Shown: piece by piece, positions 2,422-60,400 of the stretch | Numbering within the stretch: position 1 is the first letter of the stretch | Layout: the number at the start of each line of letters is the position of its first letter | NCBI GenBank assembly: GCA_037349105.1 | Contig: JAYJMM010000025.1 | Span: forward strand, 806,001 to 870,000 | Length of the DNA stretch: 64,000 nucleotides | DNA from: Limnomonas spitsbergensis | Lineage: Eukaryota > Chlorophyta > Chlorophyceae > Chlamydomonadales | Direction: 5' to 3' | Position numbers and translations under genes: made by a program | Notes under the pieces: model-generated | The model's database searches: none | What the model was told of the DNA's origin: nothing | Seen by the model: the letters and a program-made list of their open reading frames with translations, nothing else

Positions 2422-24678
<22,257 letters not shown>

Positions 24679-36400: not shown

Positions 36401-39400
36401 ACTGGGAAAGAGCGGAAGCTGTCGGATCCAGTGGAAGGGCCCTCTCTTACTGTCTATGTTAAGGGCATTAGGTGGGCAGAGAAGGAGATATGACAGGTGG
36501 ACTGGGAAAGAGCGGAAGCTGTCGGATCCAGTGGAAGGGCCCTCTCTTACTGTCTATGTTAAGGGCATTAGGTGGGCAGAGAAGGAGATATGACAGGTGG
36601 ACTAGGAAAGAGCGGAAGCTGTCGGATCCAGTGGAAGGGCCCTCTCTTACTGTCTATGTTAAGGGCATTAGGTGGGCAGAGAAGGAGAGATGACAGGTGG
36701 ACTGGGAAAGAGCGGAAGCTGTCGGATCCAGTGGAAGGGCGTTGTCTATGTTAAGGGCATTAGGAGAGCGGGGAAAGGGTGGTGTGATATTGTATGGAGG
36801 CGAAGGAGGAGGAGTTTCCCGTGGAGATGGCCCTGTCTATGTTAAGGGGATTTGGTGAGTTAGAGAGAAGGGATGACAAAGTGACTAGAGGAAAAGGAGA
36901 AGGAGGAACAGCAGAAGATGTTGGATCCAGTGGAGAGGGCACTGTCTATGTGAAGGGGATCAGGTGAACAAGGGAGGAGGGGTGACAGGGTGACTGGAGT
37001 AGGAGGAGGAGGACGAGGAGGAAGTCGGATCATTTATGTTGTGCTGGCCCCTTTCCCTCCCGCAGGTCCACCCAGGAAGGCGGGTGGGGTCCCTGTCACT
37101 GTGGTCAGCGGGTTCCTGGGAGCCGGCAAGACCTGCCTCATGACTCATCTGCTGGCACATGTCAACAGCAGGACAGACGGATCACATGGGATAGGCAGTA
37201 CAAGTGAGACGAATGATGATAGCTTCATGCCTCCTGGCCGGAAGTATATGCTTTACCTGCAGTACAAGTTGTGCATGCTGTACCTGCGTTACAAGCTGTA
37301 CATGTTACACCTGCGTTACAAGCTGTACATGTTACACCAGCGTTACAAGCTGTACATGTTACACCTGCGTTACAAGCTGTACATGTTACACCTGCGTTAC
37401 AAGCTGTACATGTTACACCTGCGTCACAAGCTGTACATGTTACACCTGCGTTACAAGCTGTACATGTTACACCTGCGTTACAAGCTGTACATGTTACACC
37501 TGCGTTACAAGCTGCACCTGCTGTTCCTGCACTATTATGTTTTAACTGCTGTACATGCGTTACAAGCTGTAACTGTCTGATGTACTTGCGTTACAAGTTG
37601 TACATGCTGTCTCTGCAGTACATGATGTACTTTCATCACCTGATGTACACAACGCGCCTGCTTTACGTGCTGTACCCTCAGTGCCTGCAGATGGCTCTGC
37701 CAGGCCACCGGTGGTGGGGGTTCTTGTCAACGACCTGGCTGCTCTTAACATTGACGCACAACTTTTGACGCATGCTGCGAACAAGAGGCAGGGGCAGGTA
37801 GGGAGTGAACGTGTGTGTAGCCTAGTCTAGTGCTAAGCTGCTCTTAACATCAATGCACGGCTTTTGACGCATGCTGCGAACAAGAGGCAGGGGCAGGTAG
37901 GGAGTGAACGTGTGTGTAGCCTAGTCTAGTGCTAAGCTGCTCTCATCATCAATGCACAGCTTTTGACGCATGCTGCGAACAAGAGGCAGGGGCAGGTAGG
38001 GGGTGAAGTTGTGTGTAGCCTTGTCTAGTGCTAAGCTGCTCTCATCATCAATGCACAGCTTTTGACGCATGCTGCGAACAAGAGGCAGGGGCAGGTAGGG
38101 GGTGAATGTGTGTGTAGCCTAGTCTAGTGCTAAGCTGCTCTCATCATCAATGCACGGCTTTTGACGCATGCTGCGAACAAGAGGCAGGGGCAGGTAGGGA
38201 GTGAAGGTGTGTGTAGCCTTGTCTAGTGCTAAGCTGCTCTCATCATCAATGCACGGCTTTTGACGCATGCTGTGAACAAGAGGCAGGGGCAGGTAGGGGG
38301 TGAACGTGTGTGTAGCCTAGCCTAGTGCTAAGCTGCTCTCATCATCAATGCACGGCTTTTGACGCATGCTGCGAACAAGAGGCAGGGGCAGGTAGGGGGT
38401 GAAGGTGTGTGTAGCCTTGTCTAGTGCTAAGCTGCTCTCATCATCAATGCACAGCTTTTGACGCATGCTGCGAACAAGAGGCAGGGGCAGGTAGGGGGTG
38501 AAGGTGTGTGTAGCCTTGTCTAGTGCTAAGCTGCTCTCATCATCAATGCACAGCTTTTGACGCATGCTGTGAACAAGAGGCAGGGGCAGGTAGGGGGTGA
38601 AGGTGTGTGTAGCCTTGTCTAGTGCTAAGCTGCTCTCATCATCAATGCACAGCTTTTGACGCATGCTGCGAACAAGAGGCAGGGGCAGGTAGGGGGTGAA
38701 GGTGTGTGTAGCCTAGTCTAGTGCTAAGCTGCTCTCATCATCAATGCACAGCTTTTGACGCATGCTGCGAACAAGAGGCAGGGGCAGGTAGGGGGTGAAT
38801 GTGTGTGTAGCCTAGTCTAGTGCTAAGCTGCTCTCATCATCAATGCACGGCTTTTGACGCATGCTGCGAACAAGAGGCAGGGGCAGGTAGGGAGTGAAGG
38901 TGTGTGTAGCCTTGTCTAGTGCTAAGCTGCTCTCATCATCAATGCACGGCTTTTGACGCATGCTGTGAACAAGAGGCAGGGGCAGGTAGGGGGTGAACGT
39001 GTGTGTAGCCTAGCCTAGTGCTAAGCTGCTCTCATCATCAATGCACGGCTTTTGACGCATGCTGCGAACAAGAGGCAGGGGCAGGTAGGGGGTGAAGGTG
39101 TGTGTAGCCTTGTCTAGTGCTAAGCTGCTCTCATCATCAATGCACAGCTTTTGACGCATGCTGCGAACAAGAGGCAGGGGCAGGTAGGGGGTGAAGGTGT
39201 GTGTAGCCTTGTCTAGTGCTAAGCTGCTCTCATCATCAATGCACAGCTTTTGACGCATGCTGTGAACAAGAGGCAGGGGCAGGTAGGGGGTGAAGGTGTG
39301 TGTAGCCTTGTCTAGTGCTAAGCTGCTCTCATCATCAATGCACAGCTTTTGACGCATGCTGCGAACAAGAGGCAGGGGCAGGTAGGGGGTGAACGTGTGT

Positions 39401-42400
39401 GTAGCCTAGCCTAGTGCTAAGCTGCTCTCATCATCAATGCACGGCTTTTGACGCATGCTGCAAAACAAGAGGCAGGGGCAGGTAGGGGGTGAAGGTGTGT
39501 GTAGCCTTGTCTAGTGCTAAGCTGCTCTCATCATCAATGCACAGCTTTTGACGCATGCTGTGAACAAGAGGCAGGGGCAGGTAGGGGGTGAAGGTGTGTG
39601 TAGCCTAGTCTAGTGCTAAGCTGCTCTCATCATCAATGCACAGCTTTTGACGCATGCTGCGAACAAGAGGCAGGGGCAGGTAGGGGGTGAAGGTGTGTGT
39701 AGCCTAGCCTAGTGCTAAGCTGCTCTCATCATCAATGCACAGCTTTTGACGCATGCTGCGAACAAGAGGCAGGGGCAGGTAGGGGGTGAAGGTGTGTGTA
39801 GCCTAGTCTAGTGCTAAGCTGCTCTCATCATCAATGCACAGCTTTTGACGCATGCTGCGAACAAGAGGCAGGGGCAGGTAGGGGGTGAAGGTGTGTGTAG
39901 CCTTGTCTAGTGCTAAGCTGCTCTCATCATCAATGCACGGCTTTTGACGCATGCTGTGAACAAGAGGCAGGGGCAGGTAGGGGGTGGACGTGTGTGTAGC
40001 CTAGCCTAGTGCTAAGCTGCTCTCATCATCAATGCACAGCTTTTGACGCATGCTGCGAACAAGAGGCAGGGGCAGGTAGGGGGTGAAGGTGTGTGTAGCC
40101 TTGTCTAGTGCTAAGCTGCTCTCATCATCAATGCACGGCTTTTGACGCATGCTGCGAACAAGCGGCAGGGGCAGGTAGGGAGTGAAGGTGTGTGTAGCCT
40201 AGTCTAGTGCTAAGCTGCTCTCATCATCAATGCACAGCTTTTGACGCATGCTGCGAACAAGAGGCAGGGGCAGGTAGGGGGTGAAGGTGTGTGTAGCCTA
40301 GCCTAGTGCTAAGCTGCTCTCATCATCAATGCGCGGCTTTTGACGCATGCTGTGAACAAGAGGCAGGGGCAGGTAGGGGGTGAACGTGTGTGTAGCCTAG
40401 TCTAGTGCTAAGCTGCTCTCATCATCAATGCACAGCTTTTGACGCATGCTGCGAACAAGAGGCAGGGGCAGGTAGGGGGTGAAGTTGTGTGTAGCCTAGC
40501 CTAGTGCTAAGCTGCTCTCATCATCAATGCACAGCTTTTGACGCATGCTGCGAACAAGAGGCAGGGGCAGGTAGGGAGTGAAGGTGTGTGTAGCCTAGCC
40601 TAGTGCTAAGCTGCTCTCATCATCAATGCACAGCTTTTGACGCATGCTGCAAAACAAGAGGCAGGGGCAGGTAGGGGGTGAAGGTGTGTGTAGCCTTGTC
40701 TAGTGCTAAGCTGCTCTCATCATCAATGCACAGCTTTTGACGCATGCTGCGAACAAGAGGCAGGGGCAGGTAGGGGGTGAAGGTGTGTGTAGCCTTGTCT
40801 AGTGCTAAGCTGCTCTCATCATCAATGCACAGCTTTTGACGCATGCTGTGAACAAGAGGCAGGGGCAGGTAGGGGGTGAAGGTGTGTGTAGCCTTGTCTA
40901 GTGCTAAGCTGCTCTCATCATCAATGCACAGCTTTTGACGCATGCTGCGAACAAGAGGCAGGGGCAGGTAGGGGGTGAACGTGTGTGTAGCCTAGCCTAG
41001 TGCTAAGCTGCTCTCATCATCAATGCACGGCTTTTGACGCATGCTGCAAAACAAGAGGCAGGGGCAGGTAGGGGGTGAAGGTGTGTGTAGCCTTGTCTAG
41101 TGCTAAGCTGCTCTCATCATCAATGCACAGCTTTTGACGCATGCTGTGAACAAGAGGCAGGGGCAGGTAGGGGGTGAAGGTGTGTGTAGCCTAGTCTAGT
41201 GCTAAGCTGCTCTCATCATCTATGCACAGCTTTTGACGCATGCTGCGAACAAGAGGCAGGGGCAGGTAGGGGGTGAAGGTGTGTGTAGCCTAGCCTAGTG
41301 CTAAGCTGCTCTCATCATCAATGCACAGCTTTTGACGCATGCTGCGAACAAGAGGCAGGGGCAGGTAGGGGGTGAAGGTGTGTGTAGCCTAGTCTAGTGC
41401 TAAGCTGCTCTCATCATCAATGCACAGCTTTTGACGCATGCTGCGAACAAGAGGCAGGGGCAGGTAGGGGGTGAAGGTGTGTGTAGCCTTGTCTAGTGCT
41501 AAGCTGCTCTCATCATCAATGCACGGCTTTTGACGCATGCTGTGAACAAGAGGCAGGGGCAGGTAGGGGGTGGACGTGTGTGTAGCCTAGCCTAGTGCTA
41601 AGCTGCTCTCATCATCAATGCACAGCTTTTGACGCATGCTGCGAACAAGAGGCAGGGGCAGGTAGGGGGTGAAGGTGTGTGTAGCCTTGTCTAGTGCTAA
41701 GCTGCTCTCATCATCAATGCACGGCTTTTGACGCATGCTGCGAACAAGCGGCAGGGGCAGGTAGGGAGTGAAGGTGTGTGTAGCCTAGTCTAGTGCTAAG
41801 CTGCTCTCATCATCAATGCACAGCTTTTGACGCATGCTGCGAACAAGAGGCAGGGGCAGGTAGGGGGTGAAGGTGTGTGTAGCCTAGCCTAGTGCTAAGC
41901 TGCTCTCATCATCAATGCACGGCTTTTGACGCATGCTGTGAACAAGAGGCAGGGGCAGGTAGGGGGTGAACGTGTGTGTAGCCTAGTCTAGTGCTAAGCT
42001 GCTCTCATCATCAATGCACAGCTTTTGACGCATGCTGCGAACAAGAGGCAGGGGCAGGTAGGGGGTGAAGGTGTGTGTAGCCTAGCCTAGTGCTAAGCTG
42101 CTCTCATCATCAATGCACAGCTTTTGACGCATGCTGCGAACAAGAGGCAGGGGCAGGTAGGGAGTGAAGGTGTGTGTAGCCTAGCCTAGTGCTAAGCTGC
42201 TCTCATCATCAATGCACAGCTTTTGACGCATGCTGCAAAACAAGAGGCAGGGGCAGGTAGGGGGTGAAGGTGTGTGTAGCCTAGCCTAGTGCTAAGCTGC
42301 TCTCATCATCAATGCACAGCTTTTGACGCATGCTGCGAACAAGAGGCAGGGGCAGGTAGGGGGGGAAGGTGTGTGTAGCCTTGTCTAGTGCTAAGCTGCT

Positions 42401-45400
42401 CTCATCATCAATGCACAGCTTTTGACGCATGCTGCGAACAAGAGGCAGGGGCAGGTAGGGAGTGAACGTGTGTGTAACCTAGTCTAGTGCTAAGCTGCTC
42501 TCATCATCAATGCACAGCTTTTGACGCATGCTGTGAACAAGAGGCAGGGGCAGGTAGGGGGTGAAGGTGTGTGTAGCCTTGTCTAGTGCTAAGCTGCTCT
42601 CATCATCAATGCACGGCTTTTGACGCATGCTGCGAACAAGAGGCAGGGGCAGGTAGGGGGTGAAGGTGTGTGTAGCCTAGTCTAGTGCTAAGCTGCTCTC
42701 ATCATCAATGCACAGCTTTTGACGCATGCTGTGAACAAGAGGCAGGGGCAGGTAGGGAGTGAAGGTGTGTGTAGCCTAGTCTAGTGCTAAGCTGCTCTCA
42801 TCATCAATGCACAGCTTTTGACGCATGCTGCAAAACAAGAGGCAGGGGCAGGTAGGGGGTGAAGGTGTGTGTAGCCTTGTCTAGTGCTAAGCTGCTCTCA
42901 TCATCAATGCACAGCTTTTGACGCATGCTGTGAACAAGAGGCAGGGGCAGGTAGGGAGTGAAGGTGTGTGTAGCCTTGTCTAGTGCTAAGCTGCTCTCAT
43001 CATCAATGCACTGCTTTTGACGCATGCTGTGAACAAGAGGCAGGGGCAGGTAGGGAGTGAAGGTGTGTGTAGCCTAGCCTAGTGCTAAGCTGCTCTCATC
43101 ATCAATGCACAGCTTTTGACGCATGCTGCGAACAAGAGGCAGGGGCAGGTAGGGGGTGAAGGTGTGTGTAGCCTAGTCTAGTGCTAAGCTGCTCTTATCA
43201 TCAATGCACTGCTTTTGACGCATGCTGTGAACAAGAGGCAGGGGCAGGTAGGGAGTGAAGGTGTGTGTAGCCTAGCCTAGTGCTAAGCTGCTCTCATCAT
43301 CAATGCACAGCTTTTGACGCATGCTGCGAACAAGAGGCAGGGGCAGGTAGGGAGTGAACGTGTGTGTAGCCTAGTCTAGTGCTAAGCTGCTCTCATCATC
43401 AATGCACAGCTTTTGACGCATGCTGCGAACAAGAGGCAGGGGCAGGTAGGGGGGGAAGGTGTGTGTAGCCTTGTCTAGTGCTAAGCTGCTCTCATCATCA
43501 ATGCACAGCTTTTGACGCATGCTGCGAACAAGAGGCAGGGGCAGGTAGGGAGTGAACGTGTGTGTAACCTAGTCTAGTGCTAAGCTGCTCTCATCATCAA
43601 TGCACAGCTTTTGACGCATGCTGTGAACAAGAGGCAGGGGCAGGTAGGGGGTGAAGGTGTGTGTAGCCTTGTCTAGTGCTAAGCTGCTCTCATCATCAAT
43701 GCACGGCTTTTGACGCATGCTGCGAACAAGAGGCAGGGGCAGGTAGGGGGTGAAGGTGTGTGTAGCCTAGTCTAGTGCTAAGCTGCTCTCATCATCAATG
43801 CACAGCTTTTGACGCATGCTGTGAACAAGAGGCAGGGGCAGGTAGGGAGTGAAGGTGTGTGTAGCCTAGTCTAGTGCTAAGCTGCTCTCATCATCAATGC
43901 ACAGCTTTTGACGCATGCTGCAAAACAAGAGGCAGGGGCAGGTAGGGGGTGAAGGTGTGTGTAGCCTTGTCTAGTGCTAAGCTGCTCTCATCATCAATGC
44001 ACAGCTTTTGACGCATGCTGTGAACAAGAGGCAGGGGCAGGTAGGGAGTGAAGGTGTGTGTAGCCTTGTCTAGTGCTAAGCTGCTCTCATCATCAATGCA
44101 CTGCTTTTGACGCATGCTGTGAACAAGAGGCAGGGGCAGGTAGGGAGTGAAGGTGTGTGTAGCCTAGCCTAGTGCTAAGCTGCTCTCATCATCAATGCAC
44201 AGCTTTTGACGCATGCTGCGAACAAGAGGCAGGGGCAGGTAGGGGGTGAAGGTGTGTGTAGCCTAGTCTAGTGCTAAGCTGCTCTTATCATCAATGCACT
44301 GCTTTTGACGCATGCTGTGAACAAGAGGCAGGGGCAGGTAGGGAGTGAAGGTGTGTGTAGCCTAGCCTAGTGCTAAGCTGCTCTCATCATCAATGCACAG
44401 CTTTTGACGCATGCTGCGAACAAGAGGCAGGGGCAGGTAGGGAGTGAACGTGTGTGTAGCCTAGTCTAGTGCTAAGCTGCTCTCATCATCAATGCACAGC
44501 TTTTGACGCATGCTGCAAAACAAGAGGCAGGGGCAGGTAGGGGGTGAAGGTGTGTGTAGCCTAGCCTAGTGCTAAGCTGCTCTCATCATCAATGCACAGC
44601 TTTTGACGCATGCTGCGAACAAGAGGCAGGGGCAGGTAGGGGGTGAACGTGTGTGTAGCCTAGTCTAGTGCTAAGCTGCTCTCATCATCAATGCACGGCT
44701 TTTGACGCATGCTGTGAACAAGAGGCAGGGGCAGGTAGGGAGTGAACGTGTGTGTAGCCTAGTCTAGTGCTAAGCTGCTCTCATCATCAATGCACAGCTT
44801 TTGACGCATGCTGTGAACAAGAGGCAGGGGCAGGTAGGGGGTGAAGGTGTGTGTAGCCTAGCCTAGTGCTAAGCTGCTCTTATCATCAATGCACAGCTTT
44901 TGACGCATGCTGCGAACAAGAGGCAGGGGCAGGTAGGGAGTGAACGTGTGTGTAGCCTAGTCTAGTGCTAAGCTGCTCTCATCATCAATGCACAGCTTTT
45001 GACGCATGCTGCGAACAAGAGGCAGGGGCAGGTAGGGGGTGAAGGTGTGTGTAGCCTTGTCTAGTGCTAAGCTGCTCTCATCATCAATGCACGGCTTTTG
45101 ACGCATGCTGCGAACAAGAGGCAGGGGCAGGTAGGGAGTGAAGGTGTGTGTAGCCTAGCCTAGTGCTAAGCTGCTCTCATCATCAATGCACAGCTTTTGA
45201 CGCATGCTGCAAAACAAGAGGCAGGGGCAGGTAGGGGGTGAACGTGTGTGTAGCCTAGCCTAGTGCTAAGCTGCTCTCATCATCAATGCACAGCTTTTGA
45301 CGCATGCTGCGAACAAGAGGCAGGGGCAGGTAGGGGGGGAAGGTGTGTGTAGCCTTGTCTAGTGCTAAGCTGCTCTCATCATCAATGCACAGCTTTTGAC

Positions 45401-48400
45401 GCATGCTGCGAACAAGAGGCAGGGGCAGGTAGGGGGTGAAGGTGTGTGTAGCCTAGTCTAGTGCTAAGCTGCTCTCATCATCAATGCACAGCTTTTGACG
45501 CATGCTGTGAACAAGAGGCAGGGGCAGGTAGGGGGTGAAGGTGTGTGTAGCCTTGTCTAGTGCTAAGCTGCTCTCATCATCAATGCACAGCTTTTGACGC
45601 ATGCTGCGAACAAGAGGCAGGGGCAGGTAGGGGGTGAAGGTGTGTGTAGCCTAGTCTAGTGCTAAGCTGCTCTCATCATCAATGCACAGCTTTTGACGCA
45701 TGCTGCGAACAAGAGGCAGGGGCAGGTAGGGAGTGAAGGTGTGTGTAGCCTAGTCTAGTGCTAAGCTGCTCTCATCATCAATGCACAGCTTTTGACGCAT
45801 GCTGCGAACAAGAGGCAGGGGCAGGTAGGGAGTGAACGTGTGTGTAGCCTAGTCTAGTGCTAAGCTGCTCTCATCATCAATGCACCGCTTTTGACGCATG
45901 CTGCAAAACAAGAGGCAAGGGCAGGTAGGGGGTGAAGTTGTGTGTAGCCTTGTCTAGTGCTAAGCTGCTCTCATCATCAATGCACAGCTTTTGACGCATG
46001 CTGTGAACAAGAGGCAGGGGCAGGTAGGGAGTGAAGGTGTGTGTAGCCTTGTCTAGTGCTAAGCTGCTCTCATCATCAATGCACTGCTTTTGACGCATGC
46101 TGTGAACAAGAGGCAGGGGCAGGTAGGGAGTGAAGGTGTGTGTAGCCTAGCCTAGTGCTAAGCTGCTCTCATCATCAATGCACAGCTTTTGACGCATGCT
46201 GTGAACAAGAGGCAGGGGCAGGTAGGGGGTGAAGGTGTGTGTAGCCTAGCCTAGTGCTAAGCTGCTCTTATCATCAATGCACAGCTTTTGACGCATGCTG
46301 CGAACAAGAGGCAGGGGCAGGTAGGGAGTGAACGTGTGTGTAGCCTAGTCTAGTGCTAAGCTGCTCTCATCATCAATGCACAGCTTTTGACGCATGCTGC
46401 GAACAAGAGGCAGGGGCAGGTAGGGGGTGAAGGTGTGTGTAGCCTTGTCTAGTGCTAAGCTGCTCTCATCATCAATGCACGGCTTTTGACGCATGCTGCG
46501 AACAAGAGGCAGGGGCAGGTAGGGAGTGAAGGTGTGTGTAGCCTAGCCTAGTGCTAAGCTGCTCTCATCATCAATGCACAGCTTTTGACGCATGCTGCAA
46601 AACAAGAGGCAGGGGCAGGTAGGGGGTGAACGTGTGTGTAGCCTAGCCTAGTGCTAAGCTGCTCTCATCATCAATGCACAGCTTTTGACGCATGCTGCGA
46701 ACAAGAGGCAGGGGCAGGTAGGGGGGGAAGGTGTATGTAGCCTTGTCTAGTGCTAAGCTGCTCTCATCATCAATGCACAGCTTTTGACGCATGCTGCGAA
46801 CAAGAGGCAGGGGCAGGTAGGGGGTGAAGGTGTGTGTAGCCTAGTCTAGTGCTAAGCTGCTCTCATCATCAATGCACAGCTTTTGACGCATGCTGTGAAC
46901 AAGAGGCAGGGGCAGGTAGGGGGTGAAGGTGTGTGTAGCCTTGTCTAGTGCTAAGCTGCTCTCATCATCAATGCACAGCTTTTGACGCATGCTGTGAACA
47001 AGAGGCAGGGGCAGGTAGGGAGTGAAGGTGTGTGTAGCCTAGCCTAGTGCTAAGCTGCTCTCATCATCAATGCACAGCTTTTGACGCATGCTGTGAACAA
47101 GAGGCAGGGGCAGGTAGGGGGTGAAGGTGTGTGTAGCCTAGCCTAGTGCTAAGCTGCTCTTATCATCAATGCACAGCTTTTGACGCATGCTGCGAACAAG
47201 AGGCAGGGGCAGGTAGGGAGTGAACGTGTGTGTAGCCTAGTCTAGTGCTAAGCTGCTCTCATCATCAATGCACAGCTTTTGACGCATGCTGCGAACAAGA
47301 GGCAGGGGCAGGTAGGGGGTGAAGGTGTGTGTAGCCTTGTCTAGTGCTAAGCTGCTCTCATCATCAATGCACGGCTTTTGACGCATGCTGCGAACAAGAG
47401 GCAGGGGCAGGTAGGGAGTGAAGGTGTGTGTAGCCTAGCCTAGTGCTAAGCTGCTCTCATCATCAATGCACAGCTTTTGACGCATGCTGCAAAACAAGAG
47501 GCAGGGGCAGGTAGGGGGTGAACGTGTGTGTAGCCTAGCCTAGTGCTAAGCTGCTCTCATCATCAATGCACAGCTTTTGACGCATGCTGCGAACAAGAGG
47601 CAGGGGCAGGTAGGGGGGGAAGGTGTATGTAGCCTTGTCTAGTGCTAAGCTGCTCTCATCATCAATGCACAGCTTTTGACGCATGCTGCGAACAAGAGGC
47701 AGGGGCAGGTAGGGGGTGAAGGTGTGTGTAGCCTAGTCTAGTGCTAAGCTGCTCTCATCATCAATGCACAGCTTTTGACGCATGCTGTGAACAAGAGGCA
47801 GGGGCAGGTAGGGGGTGAAGGTGTGTGTAGCCTTGTCTAGTGCTAAGCTGCTCTCATCATCAATGCACAGCTTTTGACGCATGCTGCGAACAAGAGGCAG
47901 GGGCAGGTAGGGGGTGAAGGTGTGTGTAGCCTAGTCTAGTGCTAAGCTGCTCTCATCATCAATGCACAGCTTTTGACGCATGCTGCGAACAAGAGGCAGG
48001 GGCAGGTAGGGAGTGAAGGTGTGTGTAGCCTAGTCTAGTGCTAAGCTGCTCTCATCATCAATGCACAGCTTTTGACGCATGCTGCGAACAAGAGGCAGGG
48101 GCAGGTAGGGAGTGAACGTGTGTGTAGCCTAGTCTAGTGCTAAGCTGCTCTCATCATCAATGCACAGCTTTTGACGCATGCTGCAAAACAAGAGGCAAGG
48201 GCAGGTAGGGGGTGAAGTTGTGTGTAGCCTTGTCTAGTGCTAAGCTGCTCTCATCATCAATGCACAGCTTTTGACGCATGCTGTGAACAAGAGGCAGGGG
48301 CAGGTAGGGAGTGAAGGTGTGTGTAGCCTTGTCTAGTGCTAAGCTGCTCTCATCATCAATGCACTGCTTTTGACGCATGCTGTGAACAAGAGGCAGGGGC

Positions 48401-51400
48401 AGGTAGGGAGTGAAGGTGTGTGTAGCCTAGCCTAGTGCTAAGCTGCTCTCATCATCAATGCACAGCTTTTGACGCATGCTGCGAACAAGAGGCAGGGGCA
48501 GGTAGGGGGTGAAGGTGTGTGTAGCCTAGTCTAGTGCTAAGCTGCTCTTATCATCAATGCACTGCTTTTGACGCATGCTGTGAACAAGAGGCAGGGGCAG
48601 GTAGGGAGTGAAGGTGTGTGTAGCCTAGCCTAGTGCTAAGCTGCTCTCATCATCAATGCACAGCTTTTGACGCATGCTGCGAACAAGAGGCAGGGGCAGG
48701 TAGGGAGTGAACGTGTGTGTAGCCTAGTCTAGTGCTAAGCTGCTCTCATCATCAATGCACAGCTTTTGACGCATGCTGCGAACAAGAGGCAGGGGCAGGT
48801 AGGGGGTGAACGTGTGTGTAGCCTAGTCTAGTGCTAAGCTGCTCTCATCATCAATGCACGGCTTTTGACGCATGCTGTGAACAAGAGGCAGGGGCAGGTA
48901 GGGAGTGAACGTGTGTGTAGCCTAGTCTAGTGCTAAGCTGCTCTCATCATCAATGCACAGCTTTTGACGCATGCTGTGAACAAGAGGCAGGGGCAGGTAG
49001 GGGGTGAAGGTGTGTGTAGCCTAGCCTAGTGCTAAGCTGCTCTTATCATCAATGCACAGCTTTTGACGCATGCTGCGAACAAGAGGCAGGGGCAGGTAGG
49101 GAGTGAACGTGTGTGTAGCCTAGTCTAGTGCTAAGCTGCTCTCATCATCAATGCACAGCTTTTGACGCATGCTGCGAACAAGAGGCAGGGGCAGGTAGGG
49201 GGTGAAGGTGTGTGTAGCCTTGTCTAGTGCTAAGCTGCTCTCATCATCAATGCACGGCTTTTGACGCATGCTGCGAACAAGAGGCAGGGGCAGGTAGGGG
49301 GTGAAGGTGTGTGTAGCCTAGCCTAGTGCTAAGCTGCTCTCATCATCAATGCACAGCTTTTGACGCATGCTGCGAACAAGAGGCAGGGGCAGGTAGGGAG
49401 TGAAGGTGTGTGTAGCCTAGTCTAGTGCTAAGCTGCTCTCATCATCAATGCACAGCTTTTGACGCATGCTGCAAAACAAGAGGCAAGGGCAGGTAGGGGG
49501 TGAAGTTGTGTGTAGCCTTGTCTAGTGCTAAGCTGCTCTCATCATCAATGCACAGCTTTTGACGCATGCTGTGAACAAGAGGCAGGGGCAGGTAGGGAGT
49601 GAAGGTGTGTGTAGCCTTGTCTAGTGCTAAGCTGCTCTCATCATCAATGCACTGCTTTTGACGCATGCTGTGAACAAGAGGCAGGGGCAGGTAGGGGGTG
49701 AAGGTGTGTGTAGCCTAGCCTAGTGCTAAGCTGCTCTCATCATCAATGCACAGCTTTTGACGCATGCTGTGAACAAGAGGCAGGGGCAGGTAGGGGGTGA
49801 AGGTGTGTGTAGCCTAGTCTAGTGCTAAGCTGCTCTTATCATCAATGCACTGCTTTTGACGCATGCTGTGAACAAGAGGCAGGGGCAGGTAGGGAGTGAA
49901 GGTGTGTGTAGCCTAGCCTAGTGCTAAGCTGCTCTCATCATCAATGCACAGCTTTTGACGCATGCTGCGAACAAGAGGCAGGGGCAGGTAGGGAGTGAAC
50001 GTGTGTGTAGCCTAGTCTAGTGCTAAGCTGCTCTCATCATCAATGCACAGCTTTTGACGCATGCTGCGAACAAGAGGCAGGGGCAGGTAGGGGGTGAACG
50101 TGTGTGTAGCCTAGTCTAGTGCTAAGCTGCTCTCATCATCAATGCACGGCTTTTGACGCATGCTGCGAACAAGAGGCAGGGGCAGGTAGGGGGTGAAGGT
50201 GTGTGTAGCCTAGCCTAGTGCTAAGCTGCTCTCATCATCAATGCACAGCTTTTGACGCATGCTGCGAACAAGAGGCAGGGGCAGGTAGGGAGTGAACGTG
50301 TGTGTAGCCTAGTCTAGTGCTAAGCTGCTCTCATCATCAATGCACAGCTTTTGACGCATGCTGCGAACAAGAGGCAGGGGCAGGTAGGGGGTGAAGGTGT
50401 GTGTAGCCTTGTCTAGTGCTAAGCTGCTCTCATCATCAATGCACGGCTTTTGACGCATGCTGCGAACAAGAGGCAGGGGCAGGTAGGGGGTGAAGGTGTG
50501 TGTAGCCTAGCCTAGTGCTAAGCTGCTCTCATCATCAATGCACAGCTTTTGACGCATGCTGCGAACAAGAGGCAGGGGCAGGTAGGGAGTGAAGGTGTGT
50601 GTAGCCTAGTCTAGTGCTAAGCTGCTCTCATCATCAATGCACAGCTTTTGACGCATGCTGCGAACAAGAGGCAGGGGCAGGTAGGGGGTGAACGTGTGTG
50701 TAGCCTAGCCTAGTGCTAAGCTGCTCTCATCATCAATGCACAGCTTTTGACGCATGCTGCGAACAAGAGGCAGGGGCAGGTAGGGAGTGAAGGTGTGTGT
50801 AGCCTAGTCTAGTGCTAAGCTGCTCTCATCATCAATGCACAGCTTTTGACGCATGCTGCGAACAAGAGGCAGGGGCAGGTAGGGGGTGAAGGTGTGTGTA
50901 GCCTTGTCTAGTGCTAAGCTGCTCTCATCATCAATGCACGGCTTTTGACGCATGCTGTGAACAAGAGGCAGGGGCAGGTAGGGAGTGAACGTGTGTGTAG
51001 CCTAGTCTAGTGCTAAGCTGCTCTCATCATCAATGCACAGCTTTTGACGCATGCTGTGAACAAGAGGCAGGGGCAGGTAGGGGGTGAAGGTGTGTGTAGC
51101 CTAGCCTAGTGCTAAGCTGCTCTTATCATCAATGCACAGCTTTTGACGCATGCTGCGAACAAGAGGCAGGGGCAGGTAGGGAGTGAACGTGTGTGTAGCC
51201 TAGTCTAGTGCTAAGCTGCTCTCATCATCAATGCACAGCTTTTGACGCATGCTGCGAACAAGAGGCAGGGGCAGGTAGGGGGTGAACGTGTGTGTAGCCT
51301 AGTCTAGTGCTAAGCTGCTCTCATCATCAATGCACGGCTTTTGACGCATGCTGTGAACAAGAGGCAGGGGCAGGTAGGGAGTGAACGTGTGTGTAGCCTA

Positions 51401-54400
51401 GTCTAGTGCTAAGCTGCTCTCATCATCAATGCACAGCTTTTGACGCATGCTGTGAACAAGAGGCAGGGGCAGGTAGGGGGTGAAGGTGTGTGTAGCCTAG
51501 CCTAGTGCTAAGCTGCTCTTATCATCAATGCACAGCTTTTGACGCATGCTGCGAACAAGAGGCAGGGGCAGGTAGGGAGTGAACGTGTGTGTAGCCTAGT
51601 CTAGTGCTAAGCTGCTCTCATCATCAATGCACAGCTTTTGACGCATGCTGCGAACAAGAGGCAGGGGCAGGTAGGGGGTGAAGGTGTGTGTAGCCTTGTC
51701 TAGTGCTAAGCTGCTCTCATCATCAATGCACGGCTTTTGACGCATGCTGCGAACAAGAGGCAGGGGCAGGTAGGGGGTGAAGGTGTGTGTAGCCTAGCCT
51801 AGTGCTAAGCTGCTCTCATCATCAATGCACAGCTTTTGACGCATGCTGCGAACAAGAGGCAGGGGCAGGTAGGGAGTGAAGGTGTGTGTAGCCTAGTCTA
51901 GTGCTAAGCTGCTCTCATCATCAATGCACAGCTTTTGACGCATGCTGCAAAACAAGAGGCAAGGGCAGGTAGGGGGTGAAGTTGTGTGTAGCCTTGTCTA
52001 GTGCTAAGCTGCTCTCATCATCAATGCACAGCTTTTGACGCATGCTGTGAACAAGAGGCAGGGGCAGGTAGGGAGTGAAGGTGTGTGTAGCCTTGTCTAG
52101 TGCTAAGCTGCTCTCATCATCAATGCACAGCTTTTGACGCATGCTGCGAACAAGAGGCAGGGGCAGGTAGGGAGTGAAGGTGTGTGTAGCCTTGTCTAGT
52201 GCTAAGCTGCTCTCATCATCAATGCACAGCTTTTGACGCATGCTGTGAACAAGAGGCAGGGGCAGGTAGGGGGTGAAGGTGTGTGTAGCCTAGTCTAGTG
52301 CTAAGCTGCTCTTATCATCAATGCACTGCTTTTGACGCATGCTGTGAACAAGAGGCAGGGGCAGGTAGGGAGTGAAGGTGTGTGTAGCCTAGCCTAGTGC
52401 TAAGCTGCTCTCATCATCAATGCACAGCTTTTGACGCATGCTGCGAACAAGAGGCAGGGGCAGGTAGGGAGTGAACGTGTGTGTAGCCTAGTCTAGTGCT
52501 AAGCTGCTCTCATCATCAATGCACAGCTTTTGACGCATGCTGCGAACAAGAGGCAGGGGCAGGTAGGGGGTGAACGTGTGTGTAGCCTAGTCTAGTGCTA
52601 AGCTGCTCTCATCATCAATGCACGGCTTTTGACGCATGCTGTTAACAAGAGGCAGGGGCAGGTAGGGAGTGAACGTGTGTGTAGCCTAGTCTAGTGCTAA
52701 GCTGCTCTCATCATCAATGCACAGCTTTTGACGCATGCTGTGAACAAGAGGCAGGGGCAGGTAGGGGGTGAAGGTGTGTGTAGCCTAGCCTAGTGCTAAG
52801 CTGCTCTTATCATCAATGCACAGCTTTTGACGCATGCTGCGAACAAGAGGCAGGGGCAGGTAGGGGGTGAACGTGTGTGTAGCCTAGTCTAGTGCTAAGC
52901 TGCTCTCATCATCAATGCACAGCTTTTGACGCATGCTGCGAACAAGAGGCAGGGGCAGGTAGGGGGTGAAGGTGTGTGTAGCCTAGTCTAGTGCTAAGCT
53001 GCTCTTATCATCAATGCACAGCTTTTGACGCATGCTGCGAACAAGAGGCAGGGGCAGGTAGGGAGTGAACGTGTGTGTAGCCTAGTCTAGTGCTAAGCTG
53101 CTCTCATCATCAATGCACAGCTTTTGACGCATGCTGCGAACAAGAGGCAGGGGCAGGTAGGGGGTGAAGGTGTGTGTAGCCTTGTCTAGTGCTAAGCTGC
53201 TCTCATCATCAATGCACGGCTTTTGACGCATGCTGCGAACAAGAGGCAGGGGCAGGTAGGGGGTGAAGGTGTGTGTAGCCTAGCCTAGTGCTAAGCTGCT
53301 CTCATCATCAATGCACAGCTTTTGACGCATGCTGCGAACAAGAGGCAGGGGCAGGTAGGGAGTGAAGGTGTGTGTAGCCTAGTCTAGTGCTAAGCTGCTC
53401 TCATCATCAATGCACAGCTTTTGACGCATGCTGCGAACAAGAGGCAGGGGCAGGTAGGGGGTGAACGTGTGTGTAGCCTAGCCTAGTGCTAAGCTGCTCT
53501 CATCATCAATGCACAGCTTTTGACGCATGCTGCGAACAAGAGGCAGGGGCAGGTAGGGAGTGAAGGTGTGTGTAGCCTAGTCTAGTGCTAAGCTGCTCTC
53601 ATCATCAATGCACAGCTTTTGACGCATGCTGCGAACAAGAGGCAGGGGCAGGTAGGGGGTGAAGGTGTGTGTAGCCTTGTCTAGTGCTAAGCTGCTCTCA
53701 TCATCAATGCACGGCTTTTGACGCATGCTGTGAACAAGAGGCAGGGGCAGGTAGGGAGTGAACGTGTGTGTAGCCTAGTCTAGTGCTAAGCTGCTCTCAT
53801 CATCAATGCACAGCTTTTGACGCATGCTGTGAACAAGAGGCAGGGGCAGGTAGGGGGTGAAGGTGTGTGTAGCCTAGCCTAGTGCTAAGCTGCTCTTATC
53901 ATCAATGCACAGCTTTTGACGCATGCTGCGAACAAGAGGCAGGGGCAGGTAGGGAGTGAACGTGTGTGTAGCCTAGTCTAGTGCTAAGCTGCTCTCATCA
54001 TCAATGCACAGCTTTTGACGCATGCTGCGAACAAGAGGCAGGGGCAGGTAGGGGGTGAAGGTGTGTGTAGCCTTGTCTAGTGCTAAGCTGCTCTCATCAT
54101 CAATGCACGGCTTTTGACGCATGCTGCGAACAAGAGGCAGGGGCAGGTAGGGGGTGAAGGTGTGTGTAGCCTAGTCTAGTGCTAAGCTGCTCTCATCATC
54201 AATGCACAGCTTTTGACGCATGCTGCGAACAAGAGGCAGGGGCAGGTAGGGAGTGAAGGTGTGTGTAGCCTAGTCTAGTGCTAAGCTGCTCTCATCATCA
54301 ATGCACAGCTTTTGACGCATGCTGCGAACAAGAGGCAGGGGCAGGTAGGGGGTGAAGGTGTGTGTAGCCTTGTCTAGTGCTAAGCTGCTCTCATCATCAA

Positions 54401-57400
54401 TGCACGGCTTTTGACGCATGCTGTGAACAAGAGGCAGGGGCAGGTAGGGAGTGAACGTGTGTGTAGCCTTGTCTAGTGCTAAGCTGCTCTCATCATCAAT
54501 GCACAGCTTTTGACGCATGCTGCGAACAAGAGGCAGGGGCAGGTAGGGGGTGAAGGTGTGTGTAGCCTAGTCTAGTGCTAAGCTGCTCTCATCATCAATG
54601 CACAGCTTTTGACGCATGCTGCGAACAAGAGGCAGGGGCAGGTAGGGAGTGAAGGTGTGTGTAGCCTAGTCTAGTGCTAAGCTGCTCTCATCATCAATGC
54701 ACGGCTTTTGACGCATGCTGCGAACAAGAGGCAGGGGCAGGTAGGGGGTGAAGGTGTGTGTAGCCTAGCCTAGTGCTAAGCTGCTCTCATCATCAATGCA
54801 CAGCTTTTGACGCATGCTGCGAACAAGAGGCAGGGGCAGGTAGGGAGTGAAGGTGTGTGTAGCCTAGTCTAGTGCTAAGCTGCTCTCATCATCAATGCAC
54901 AGCTTTTGACGCATGCTGCAAAACAAGAGGCAAGGGCAGGTAGGGGGTGAAGTTGTGTGTAGCCTTGTCTAGTGCTAAGCTGCTCTCATCATCAATGCAC
55001 AGCTTTTGACGCATGCTGTGAACAAGAGGCAGGGGCAGGTAGGGAGTGAAGGTGTGTGTAGCCTTGTCTAGTGCTAAGCTGCTCTCATCATCAATGCACT
55101 GCTTTTGACGCATGCTGTGAACAAGAGGCAGGGGCAGGTAGGGAGTGAAGGTGTGTGTAGCCTAGCCTAGTGCTAAGCTGCTCTCATCATCAATGCACAG
55201 CTTTTGACGCATGCTGTGAACAAGAGGCAGGGGCAGGTAGGGGGTGAAGGTGTGTGTAGCCTAGTCTAGTGCTAAGCTGCTCTTATCATCAATGCACTGC
55301 TTTTGACGCATGCTGTGAACAAGAGGCAGGGGCAGGTAGGGAGTGAAGGTGTGTGTAGCCTAGCCTAGTGCTAAGCTGCTCTCATCATCAATGCACAGCT
55401 TTTGACGCATGCTGCGAACAAGAGGCAGGGGCAGGTAGGGAGTGAACGTGTGTGTAGCCTAGTCTAGTGCTAAGCTGCTCTCATCATCAATGCACAGCTT
55501 TTGACGCATGCTGCGAACAAGAGGCAGGGGCAGGTAGGGGGTGAACGTGTGTGTAGCCTAGTCTAGTGCTAAGCTGCTCTCATCATCAATGCACGGCTTT
55601 TGACGCATGCTGTTAACAAGAGGCAGGGGCAGGTAGGGAGTGAACGTGTGTGTAGCCTAGTCTAGTGCTAAGCTGCTCTCATCATCAATGCACAGCTTTT
55701 GACGCATGCTGTGAACAAGAGGCAGGGGCAGGTAGGGGGTGAAGGTGTGTGTAGCCTAGCCTAGTGCTAAGCTGCTCTTATCATCAATGCACAGCTTTTG
55801 ACGCATGCTGCGAACAAGAGGCAGGGGCAGGTAGGGAGTGAACGTGTGTGTAGCCTAGTCTAGTGCTAAGCTGCTCTCATCATCAATGCACAGCTTTTGA
55901 CGCATGCTGCGAACAAGAGGCAGGGGCAGGTAGGGGGTGAAGGTGTGTGTAGCCTTGTCTAGTGCTAAGCTGCTCTCATCATCAATGCACGGCTTTTGAC
56001 GCATGCTGCGAACAAGAGGCAGGGGCAGGTAGGGGGTGAAGGTGTGTGTAGCCTAGCCTAGTGCTAAGCTGCTCTCATCATCAATGCACAGCTTTTGACG
56101 CATGCTGCGAACAAGAGGCAGGGGCAGGTAGGGAGTGAAGGTGTGTGTAGCCTAGTCTAGTGCTAAGCTGCTCTCATCATCAATGCACAGCTTTTGACGC
56201 ATGCTGCGAACAAGAGGCAGGGGCAGGTAGGGGGTGAACGTGTGTGTAGCCTAGCCTAGTGCTAAGCTGCTCTCATCATCAATGCACAGCTTTTGACGCA
56301 TGCTGCGAACAAGAGGCAGGGGCATGTAGGGAGTGAAGGTGTGTGTAGCCTAGTCTAGTGCTAAGCTGCTCTCATCATCAATGCACAGCTTTTGACGCAT
56401 GCTGCGAACAAGAGGCAGGGGCAGGTAGGGGGTGAAGGTGTGTGTAGCCTTGTCTAGTGCTAAGCTGCTCTCATCATCAATGCACGGCTTTTGACGCATG
56501 CTGTGAACAAGAGGCAGGGGCAGGTAGGGAGTGAACGTGTGTGTAGCCTAGTCTAGTGCTAAGCTGCTCTCATCATCAATGCACAGCTTTTGACGCATGC
56601 TGTGAACAAGAGGCAGGGGCAGGTAGGGGGTGAAGGTGTGTGTAGCCTAGCCTAGTGCTAAGCTGCTCTTATCATCAATGCACAGCTTTTGACGCATGCT
56701 GCGAACAAGAGGCAGGGGCAGGTAGGGAGTGAACGTGTGTGTAGCTTAGTCTAGTGCTAAGCTGCTCTCATCATCAATGCACAGCTTTTGACGCATGCTG
56801 CGAACAAGAGGCAGGGGCAGGTAGGGGGTGAAGGTGTGTGTAGCCTTGTCTAGTGCTAAGCTGCTCTCATCATCAATGCACGGCTTTTGACGCATGCTGC
56901 GAACAAGAGGCAGGGGCAGGTAGGGGGTGAAGGTGTGTGTAGCCTAGCCTAGTGCTAAGCTGCTCTCATCATCAATGCACAGCTTTTGACGCATGCTGCG
57001 AACAAGAGGCAGGGGCAGGTAGGGAGTGAAGGTGTGTGTAGCCTAGTCTAGTGCTAAGCTGCTCTCATCATCAATGCACAGCTTTTGACGCATGCTGCGA
57101 ACAAGAGGCAGGGGCAGGTAGGGGGTGAAGGTGTGTGTAGCCTTGTCTAGTGCTAAGCTGCTCTCATCATCAATGCACGGCTTTTGACGCATGCTGTGAA
57201 CAAGAGGCAGGGGCAGGTAGGGAGTGAACGTGTGTGTAGCCTTGTCTAGTGCTAAGCTGCTCTCATCATCAATGCACAGCTTTTGACGCATGCTGCGAAC
57301 AAGAGGCAGGGGCAGGTAGGGGGTGAAGGTGTGTGTAGCCTAGTCTAGTGCTAAGCTGCTCTCATCATCAATGCACGGCTTTTGACGCATGCTGTGAACA

Positions 57401-60400
57401 AGAGGCAGGGGCAGGTAGGGAGTGAACGTGTGTGTAGCCTAGTCTAGTGCTAAGCTGCTCTCATCATCAATGCACGGCTTTTGACGCATGCTGTGAACAA
57501 GAGGCAGGGGCAGGTAGGGAGTGAACGTGTGTGTAGCCTTGTCTAGTGCTAAGCTGCTCTCATCATCAATGCACGGCTTTTGACGCATGCTGCGAACAAG
57601 AGGCAGGGGCAGGTAGGGGGTGAAGGTGTGTGTAGCCTAGTCTAGTGCTAAGCTGCTCTCATCATCAATGCACAGCTTTTGACGCATGCTGCGAACAAGA
57701 GGCAGGGGCAGGTAGGGAGTGAACGTGTGTGTAGCCTAGCCTAGTGCTAAGCTGCTCTCATCATCAATGCACTGCTTTTGACGCATGCTGCGAACAAGAG
57801 GCAGGGGCAGGTAGGGAGTGAAGGTGTGTGTAGCCTAGTCTAGTGCTAAGCTGCTCAACATCAATGCACGGCTTTTGACAAATGCTGTGAAACAAGAGGC
57901 AGGGGCAGGTAGGGGGTGAACGTGTGTGTAGCCTAGTCTAGTGCTAAGCTGTACTCATCATCAATGCACGGCTGTTGACCAAGGCTGCCATCAGAGGGCG
58001 ACGGCAGCAGTTAGGGAGTGGAGGAGGGCTTTTGACCAACGCTGCCATCAGAGCGCGACGGCAGCAGTTAGGGAGTGGAGGAGGGCTTTTGACCAACGCT
58101 GCCATCAGAGGGCAACGGCAGCAGTTAGGGAGTGGAGGAGGGCTTTGTGTGCGTCTCATGGTTGAAAGGAAGGGGAATATTTAATCGGAAAGCCAAACCA
58201 GTGATGAACAGACAAATTAGATTGAATCAAACCTGCATTCCCATGCTCGTAACGCAGGAGCAGGTTCACCAGTCGGGGGTCCTGCAGCAGCCTCACCAGC
58301 CTGAGGTTTTGGAGCTGAGCAACGACTCAGCAATCTAAACCACCCATGCACTGCCATGCTCATAACGCAGAATGTGCTTCATGAGTCTGGGGTCCTGCAG
58401 CAGCCTCAACAGCCTGAGGTTCTGGAGCTGAGCAACGGCTGCATCTGCTGCAATCTCAAGGGAGACATGCTGCTGGTGAGTGTGGGGGGGGGTGGAGGGG
58501 GGGGGTCTGGCATTTCTGACGGTGAGTGTGTGTGGTGTGTGTTGGGGGGGGGGGGGGCTGGAATATCTGCTAGAGCTGAGAGGGGCTGGATTGCCTCAGG
58601 TCTCTAACCAAATAAAAGCTGCTGAAAATTTACCACGCTCCCATGACGCAGGCCATAGCCAAGCTGCTGGTCCAGTATCCCGGCATGCAGCTGCTGCTCA
58701 TTGAGTCGACTGGAGTGGGGGAACCCCTGCCAGTGGCAGCAGCTCTGCAGGCACTGCAGGTTAATTGATTGGAAGTTGACAGTGGGGGGCAGTCCTAGTA
58801 ATTGGCAGTTGGGGTGAGACACAGTAATTGACAGTTGGATTTCTAGTGGCGGTTGAAGGTGGGGGAGCCACTGCCAGTGGCAGCAACCTGCAGGCAGGTA
58901 GGCTGACAGTTGGTGTCAGATCCAGATCTACTGACTGTGGCAGTTCGGGATCTACTGACTGTGGCAGATCGGGATCTACTGGCTGTGAATACCTCGCTCC
59001 CTTCGCTCCCTTCTGCTTTATTGTTGTCAGGGCTATGTTGTTGTGGATACGCTGGTGACAGTGGTGGACGTGCCCCTGTCTTCTCCTGGGTTGTGAATAC
59101 CTTGCTCCCTTAGTTCCCTTCTGTTTGCTGCTTGCTTGTGAATACTGTGCTCCCTCCTGTGTTTCTGTTGCCAGGGCTATGTGGTTGTGGACACTCTGGT
59201 CACAGTGGTGGACGTGCCCCAGTTTGCTGCAGCCATGGGCCTACTGCCCAACCTGACCGCTGGCAGGGTGCATCAGGCAGAAGTGGAGGACGAGGCAAAT
59301 AAGGCGGAGGAGAAGGGTGTGAAACTTTTGTCAGAGTTGCTGGTGGAGCAGGTGGGAAGTGGGGCACTGGTAGCAAGGAGGCATTTCGAACTATTTCCGC
59401 CACCCTCACACTCCCATTTGAGAGGACACTCCCATGTGAGATGGCTGATTTCTTTCTTCAGCCTTTGTTTTTGTTCTGTTGGCAAACTTGTGGGCGGCCT
59501 AACCCGGACGTCTTAGCTTGTTATGCTGCACTGGTTTCATAGCCCCCGCTTCGGTGTATGTTGCACTAGGTCAGGGGTCAAGGGTTCAGATTTTCCACCC
59601 CTGCCTTTTGCACCCTCTACAGGTGGAGTACGCCAACGTGGTCATCCTCAACAAGTGTGACCTGCTGGGAGAGCTGCTGGCTGAAAACGTGGAAAAGTGT
59701 GACGCGTCCACACCTGGCGCCGACAAGTTTGACCTGCTGCCTGTTGCAAGCGTGGCTGCAGCTTCTGCCATGTACAGCTCATGCCGGTTATCGGAGGAGC
59801 AGGGCCCCGGCGGCATGCTGCTGCTGGAGGCGGTGAGGCAGGCCGTGGCGGCGCTGGCCCCGGCAGCGGTAATCTTGCAGGCAGTGCGCTGTCAAGTGGA
59901 GACAGGGGAAGTGCTGTGGACACACAGGTGGGAGGCCGAAACCCTCAACCCTAAACCACAAAGCAAACATCCTTGCCGTTGTCCTAAACCCTAACCTAAA
60001 CCCTTTCTGAAAAGATTATTGTTGCTGCCATAAACCCTACCCTTAACGCTACCCTTCACCATAGGTAAACTTTTGACCCGATCAGCAAACATCCTTGCCG
60101 TCCTTTGGCCCCCCTCACTACGTGCGTTCCGTTTTTAACTGTTGTTCTGTTCGTCTCCCTCAGGTTTGACGCAGAAGCTATGGAGACCTGCGCAAAATGG
60201 CAGATGGAAATTCTGTCTCTCGACCACGCACTCCCACCCAGGCACAAGCGGTCCGCTCCTGGGGAGGAGGAGGCATACGGCATCAGCAGTGTGGTATTGG
60301 AGGCCACACGTCCCTTCCACCCTACCAGGCTGTGGGAGCTCCTTTGGGGAGCTGTGCCAACAAGGCAGTCAGTGCCAATAGGGCAGTCAGTGCCAACAGG

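Follow-up and report, generated by a model that had tools for sequence, protein, structure and literature searches.

The window, by which we mean the whole 64,000-nucleotide stretch of Limnomonas spitsbergensis DNA analysed here, carries a CobW/G3E GTPase gene whose modelled protein contains both the CobW domain (PF02492, E 3.3e-34, 118.5 bits against a cut-off of 20.7) and the CobW_C domain (PF07683, E 4.3e-14, 52.6 bits against a cut-off of 22). Exon boundaries come from a phase-consistent model, complemented at exons 5 and 6 by homologue alignment, and the features of the gene and of its fifth intron are as follows (window coordinates).

34504–62721, + strand: CobW/CobW_C gene (Pfam), 12 modelled exons, 841 codons to the stop, N-terminal start not found
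34504–34597, + strand: exon 1
35215–35284, + strand: exon 2
35913–36270, + strand: exon 3
37066–37203, + strand: exon 4
37691–37797, + strand: exon 5, with the NIDA motif; its last 60 bp (37738–37797) are copy 1 of the array
37798–58370, + strand: intron 5, 20,573 bp, array for most of its length (intron lengths from an 11-exon model)
37738–57979, + strand: satellite in which a 99-bp unit is present 204 times, each copy with 60 bp of exon end, the donor CAG/GTAGGG and 39 bp of intron start (TRF and unit analysis)
57970–58146, + strand: three units of 57 bp, copied from the exon end and diverged; where the donor aligns they read TT, and a GT persists one base upstream (TRF, sequence)
58234–58327, + strand: diverged copy of the 5' part of exon 6 with its acceptor, within intron 5 (85% identity across 94 bp, E 1.7e-26, BLAST)
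58371–58475, + strand: exon 6, with the SNGCICC motif
58652–58759, + strand: exon 7
59175–59351, + strand: exon 8
59623–59927, + strand: exon 9
60164–60716, + strand: exon 10
62055–62397, + strand: exon 11
62552–62721, + strand: exon 12

Intron 5 is far longer than the nine other introns of the 11-exon model (176–1,338 bp). The Asp of the NIDA motif is present in 114/114 aligned homologues. Among the best 120 of 7,878 homologue matches, most of them without an organism name, those named are bacterial except for one dinoflagellate, with no named green-algal orthologue. A TPR label was a guess and was dropped, as Pfam gave no TPR match.

TRF assigned the array a period of 99, 204.3 copies and 96% matches, and our own division into units gave 204, a count taken from a single assembly, with 203 steps of 99 (187), 100 (15) or 97 (1) bases. 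The array begins within exon 5, its opening 60 bp being the exon end AALNIDAQLLTHAANKRQGQ, and GTAGGG is kept in 204/204 units and the full CAG/GTAGGG in 203/204. The earlier note had described about 200 copies of a 99-bp unit that begin in the NIDA exon, join exon end, donor and intron start, and lie between two exons of one CobW gene, and each part of that description is borne out by the unit analysis and the 12-exon model. A 25-base donor-spanning pattern (≤2 mismatches) matched the forward strand of the 260-Mb genome 204 times, and neither the reverse strand nor a reversed control at all; the genome total equals the array unit count, and all of the matches listed fall within this array, far beyond what chance would give.

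The 204 units comprise 53 distinct sequences with a mean pairwise identity of 96.5%. Differences from the consensus number 8 and 5 in the units at the array start, 15 at its end and 0–6 inside, with unit 2 intermediate between the exon sequence and the array sequence, and multi-unit blocks recur within the array, the longest exact one spanning 11 units (~1.1 kb). Exchange or slippage would be expected to leave this pattern of recurring blocks and of units that diverge most at the edges. Across the 202 inner units, 7/61 exon-derived and 9/39 intron-derived alignment columns vary (Fisher p = 0.16), so the invariance of the donor is in itself no sign of selection.

The copies are not equivalent for the protein. 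Reading frame is kept by only one of the 203 exact donors, the first, after which it stays open to the normal stop; every later exact donor leads to a stop at codon 265, through an in-frame TAG ten codons beyond the first donor. Likewise, a NIDA Asp codon beginning with G occurs in unit 1 and in no other (1/204 units). Judged by reading frame, the protein is given by the first donor only, and frame and conservation together point to its probable use in the cell. The earlier note had argued that splicing must select the first donor or else follow a recursive or skipping scheme; reading frame favours the former option, which suffices, and the latter is not needed.

The same gene carries three smaller junction-spanning arrays and further diverged exon copies, all on the + strand.

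35527–35923, + strand: array with a 45-bp period built from the exon 3 acceptor (CCTCCTCAG/GCCCCCACATG), nine exact acceptors including the real one (TRF, BLAST)
36249–36740, + strand: array with a 100-bp period built from the end of exon 3 and its donor (TRF, BLAST)
58859–58896, + strand: diverged copy of the exon 7 end (90% identity over 39 bp), which stops short of the junction and was left out of the junction count
59005–59079, + strand: diverged copy of the 5' part of exon 8 with its acceptor (85% identity across 75 bp)
60694–61800, + strand: array with a 64-bp period built from the end of exon 10 and its donor (ATGCCTCAG/GTGACC), 17.3 copies by TRF (TRF, BLAST)
61902–61976, + strand: diverged copy of the 5' part of exon 11 with its acceptor (84% identity across 77 bp)

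We favour, with a probability of about 80%, a near-neutral satellite that spans a splice junction in a gene spliced at its outer sites. A tandem duplication over the exon 5/intron 5 boundary would have placed a second exon end and donor inside the intron, and slippage or unequal exchange could then have enlarged and homogenised the array to ~200 units. The spliceosome would take the first, outermost donor and join it to exon 6, the other copies leaving as intron and the protein remaining unchanged. Duplication across the junction would be nearly neutral provided that the outer site wins and later copies go out with the intron. The array, the gene model, the loss of frame at later exact donors, the missing NIDA Asp codon in later copies and the like arrays at other junctions are direct observations; the use of the first donor in the cell, the near-neutrality and the growth mechanism are what we infer. 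Against the outer-site rule, the acceptor arrays need the last of nine near-identical exon 3 acceptors to win, and in that array 3/8 upstream acceptors also keep an open frame.

An effect of the array on expression, in which a long intron and competing donors reduce productive splicing (through second-donor use, skipped exons or slow transcription) and array length tunes output, gains some plausibility from the 20,573 bp of intron 5 in a species whose introns have a published mean length of 788 bp (PMC11228838), but the unit shows no constraint beyond homogenisation and we consider such an effect unlikely. It is less likely still that the copy number is wrong, the assembly having been stretched or compressed. 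Units that differ by a mean of just 3.5%, in a genome assembled with Canu from PacBio continuous long reads and then polished with both long and short reads, do invite that concern, yet the available text of the genome paper gives a read L50 of 32.9 kb, a longest read of 127 kb and 63x coverage, exceeding the array length (PMC11228838). Moreover, variant order along the array is traceable because no exact block exceeds 11 units, and both array edges pass smoothly into unique exon and intron sequence.

Decay of the gene into a pseudogene would make its splicing irrelevant, and broken exon copies do lie in several introns; with 841 codons open to the stop, both motifs (NIDA and CICC) kept and the two CobW domains intact, this is very improbable. 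We give the least credence to the units acting as cassette microexons (AG/36 nt/GT, 12 in-frame residues apiece). An intact arrangement of this kind with 12 codons occurs in 133/203 downstream units, with 63 nt between cassettes by arithmetic, but the AG is present in only 145/203 units scored and is lacking in unit 2, 16/203 units have a frame-breaking length, and no later copy retains the NIDA Asp codon. It is just as hard to credit that some transcripts splice from unit to unit and carry LLTHAANKRQGQ, the 12-residue cassette, in variable number within the NIDA–CICC loop, in which case the satellite would be a source of length variants of a metal chaperone.

The array can be set beside several known systems. 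The ratchet point of recursive splicing consists of a pyrimidine tract and a zero-length AG/GT exon. The array resembles it in having a donor directly after AG inside a long intron, but the unit consensus has no pyrimidine tract, the purine-rich AACAAGAGGCAGGGGCAG preceding CAG/GT (read by eye), and does not form a ratchet point. Introner elements are dispersed copies with splice sites in many genes; the array is likewise a repeated sequence carrying splice sites, but its unit occupies a single genomic place, the 204 pattern matches equalling the array unit count, and it is not an introner. Megasatellites have long units, clearly over 100 bp, so that this term, used in the earlier note, was a loose one for a unit of 99 bp. 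Intron gain by tandem duplication shares with the array a duplication over an exon–intron boundary, but there a single duplication yields a new intron, whereas here copies accumulate inside one intron.

The earlier note's impression that no comparable case exists does not hold, given the smaller arrays in this gene and its paralogues and a human VNTR. Human ABCA7 is a smaller precedent: according to the available text of PMC5954066, intron 18 contains a 25-bp VNTR of ~12 to 427 units that includes the exon 18 donor, in which the first donor is the canonical one and splicing at the second has also been observed. Both arrays open with the exon's own donor (here unit 1 comprises the exon 5 end and donor) and reach hundreds of units, in ABCA7 in long alleles; the ABCA7 unit starts from the GT and its longest allele is 10,678 bp, while the CobW unit of 99 bp includes 60 bp of coding exon and its array covers 20.2 kb (PMC5954066). 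Minisatellites at splice junctions are also described, in the accessible part of PMC2812944, as internal tandem repeats of human segmental duplications, with ~30-bp units repeated four times on average, some of which stay in mRNA or become new introns. As far as their available text goes, PMC4039745 and PMC6692358 treat minisatellites or VNTRs near alternative splicing and offer no close parallels. ABCA7 was the only large donor array among the literature matches listed (titles and opening abstract lines), and splice-site arrays are not mentioned in the available portion of the L. spitsbergensis genome paper (PMC11228838).

A single intron with some 200 almost identical donors constitutes a natural test of spliceosome choice among equal sites. 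RNA-seq data and full-length transcripts exist for L. spitsbergensis, and the data section of the genome paper names two SRA runs and a Zenodo-hosted GFF (PMC11228838, available text), so the question of donor choice may be answerable from existing data.

Among the arrays of this kind in this CobW gene and its relatives, the 20-kb one is the largest. With paralogue exon boundaries being our own calls from profile matches and GT/AG, paralogue C100 has 11 donors at 117-bp spacing 3' of an exon ending VIENE, C81 has 8 donors at 92–107-bp spacing 3' of an exon ending VVNEA, and C116 has an acceptor array of 7 sites including the real one, 71 bp apart with one gap of 141. Seven of ten CobW loci had no junction copies (0/23 junctions), the C81 array lying at a junction outside that set. 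Pooled over the six loci having both kinds of window, extra copies occur at 17/48 junctions versus 192/382 intron windows, the latter overlapping and hence non-independent; since the junction rate is not above the intron rate, a junction-aimed process is unnecessary. We accordingly did not adopt a junction-targeted duplication mechanism, noting that C116 (4/6 junctions versus 18/39 intron windows) and C100 (6/6 versus 84/183) run opposite to the pooled result on small numbers. The rates, which are 7/21 versus 88/135 in the gene of the 64,000-nucleotide window, are uneven from gene to gene, and some genes may be biased toward junctions. Mid-exon windows had extra copies in 7/51 (same gene), 0/8 (C116) and 1/4 (C100) cases. 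A motif test of 99 tandem arrays of 30–260 bp was not convincing (donor-like motifs in 7 versus 3 in the reversed control, acceptor in 6 versus 3). The occurrence of junction-crossing arrays in several CobW-family genes of a repeat-rich genome suggests that dominance of the outer site lets genes tolerate such duplications, a tolerance that may matter more than the single array; in ten arbitrary 10-kb picks of the genome, tandem repeat made up 39% on average.

The array at 37738–57979 is a real splice-junction satellite, the largest among those found here. It was recovered as one array of period 99 with 204.3 copies (TRF), and splitting on a conserved anchor gave 204 units, with a 99-base step in 187 of 203 cases. 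Unit 1 lies within the exon at 37691–37797, its first 60 bases giving AALNIDAQLLTHAANKRQGQ, after which come GTAGGG and intron. All 204 units keep GTAGGG intact and 203 keep the full CAG/GTAGGG donor, which bears out the earlier proposal of about 200 copies of a 99-bp unit starting in the NIDA exon with an intact donor. A 25-base pattern allowing up to 2 mismatches gave 204 forward matches across the 260-Mb genome, all in the array among the places listed, while its reversed control gave no matches in the same genome; the array is taken as a single-locus satellite.

The gene model is based on reading frame, GT/AG boundaries and homology. Twelve exons joined in phase give 841 codons to the stop, the modelled protein has Pfam hits to PF02492 (E 3.3e-34) and PF07683 (E 4.3e-14), and the homologue alignment extends to both flanks of the array, with NIDA upstream and NGCICC downstream. 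These features argue that the flanking exons belong to one CobW gene, as the earlier note had supposed. The N-terminal start of the modelled gene was not found, and exons upstream of the P-loop had no Pfam match.

Donor choice was assessed by substituting each exact donor in turn into the gene model. Among 203 exact exon 5 donors, the normal stop is reached from the first alone; all others halt at codon 265, because the unit contains an in-frame TAG. The NIDA Asp codon starts with G in unit 1 only (1/204), and all 114 aligned homologues longer than 300 aa (from 120 of 7,878 matches) carry this Asp, so later units are not constrained to the protein sequence. Elsewhere in the gene, frame is kept by 1 of 10 exact exon 10 donors, the real one, and by the real exon 3 donor but none of four array donors. 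The nine exact exon 3 acceptors leave an open frame for the last (real) and the first three; these three of the eight upstream copies (35527–35923) would give longer in-frame proteins. Exons 6, 8 and 11 each have one acceptor copy upstream, and none of the three keeps frame.

Edge units are the most diverged, inner units are nearly identical and blocks of units recur (longest exact block, 11 units), a pattern that fits growth by slippage or unequal exchange. The share of variable columns in the exon part (7/61) is not significantly below that in the intron part (9/39; p = 0.16), and donor conservation therefore needs no selection. Further layers can be made out: the exon end recurs in three 57-bp copies that carry TT at the aligned donor position, and a diverged copy of the start of exon 6 lies at 58234–58327.

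Within this gene, a BLAST search with every exon and its flanks revealed copies spanning both splice sites of exon 3 (acceptor and donor), the exon 5 and 10 donors and the acceptors of exons 6, 8 and 11; the exon 7 end copy stops short of its junction. Across 56 junctions tested in 10 CobW-family loci, with paralogue exon boundaries being our own calls, extra spanning copies occurred at 7/21 junctions in this gene, 4/6 on contig C116 and 6/6 on C100 (where two junction markers, themselves duplicated, matched twice and for one the upstream copy was tested), and at 0/23 in the remaining seven loci. Arrays in the paralogues are as follows, the C81 array having been found later and lying outside the 56-junction set.

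Junction arrays in CobW paralogues
L009 (C81) 7127–7882: 98-bp donor array, end of CobW exon (..DDVKPDGVVNEA) plus donor; 8 donors, 92–107 bp apart
L012 (C100) 1900–3160, reverse: 117-bp donor array, end of P-loop exon (..RIAVIENE) plus donor; 11 donors
L010 (C116) 4343–4886: 71-bp acceptor array, acceptor plus start of P-loop exon; 7 acceptors, counting the real one

A 102-bp array at 7635–8727 of the window (10.7 copies, TRF) contains a pyrimidine tract and TTCAG, then the first part of a putative open exon ending AAG/GTAAAAG, and resembles an acceptor array belonging to a second gene.

Outside the array, copies were found for 88/135 of this gene's intron windows; the counts were 18/39 on C116, 84/183 on C100, 2/10 on C81, 0/11 on C21 and 0/4 on C40, and the remaining four loci offered no such windows. 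Among mid-exon windows, copies were found for 7/51 in this gene, 0/8 on C116, 1/4 on C100 and 0/20 in the remaining loci, with five of the 7 falling in exons 3 and 10, which hold short coding repeats (TRF). When the six loci that have both junctions and intron windows are combined, 17/48 junctions had copies versus 192/382 intron windows; the windows overlap and are not independent. In these combined counts junctions are not enriched, and the middles of exons mostly lack copies; C100 and C116 individually exceed their own intron rates, on six junctions each.

The earlier note knew of no comparable case, a point answered by the human ABCA7 intron 18 VNTR, which includes the exon donor: it has a 25-bp unit in about 12 to 427 copies, the first two bases being the exon 18 donor, with the first donor canonical and use of the next also observed (PMC5954066). 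By comparison, the CobW unit is larger and includes coding exon, and its array is about twice as long. The satellite is most likely near-neutral and handled by splicing from the outer donor; its value is that the choice among some 200 equal donors could be read from transcripts.

The genome searched has 260,226,709 bases in 124 contigs; the published Limnomonas spitsbergensis assembly is given as 260,248,090 bp, 124 contigs and 54.15% GC (PMC11228838). GC content is 53.6% in the window and 51.5% in ten 10-kb picks, a non-random set at round coordinates on contigs with CobW matches. Tandem repeats occupy a mean of 39% of these picks (median 32%; shuffled controls 0), and two are almost wholly one array (L022, 12-bp unit, 93%; L025, 24-bp unit, 100%), so the genome may hold many arrays >10 kb. 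A 30-bp pyrimidine-rich array with extreme GC skew (about 10.4 kb; stretch L018 1137–10000 and window 1–1568) appears to cross the left edge of the window. Short interstitial telomere-like ACCCTAA repeats occur at 9858–9910 and 19282–19393, and the minus strand at 28750–28824 encodes a peptide that we take to be ubiquitin-conjugating-enzyme-like.
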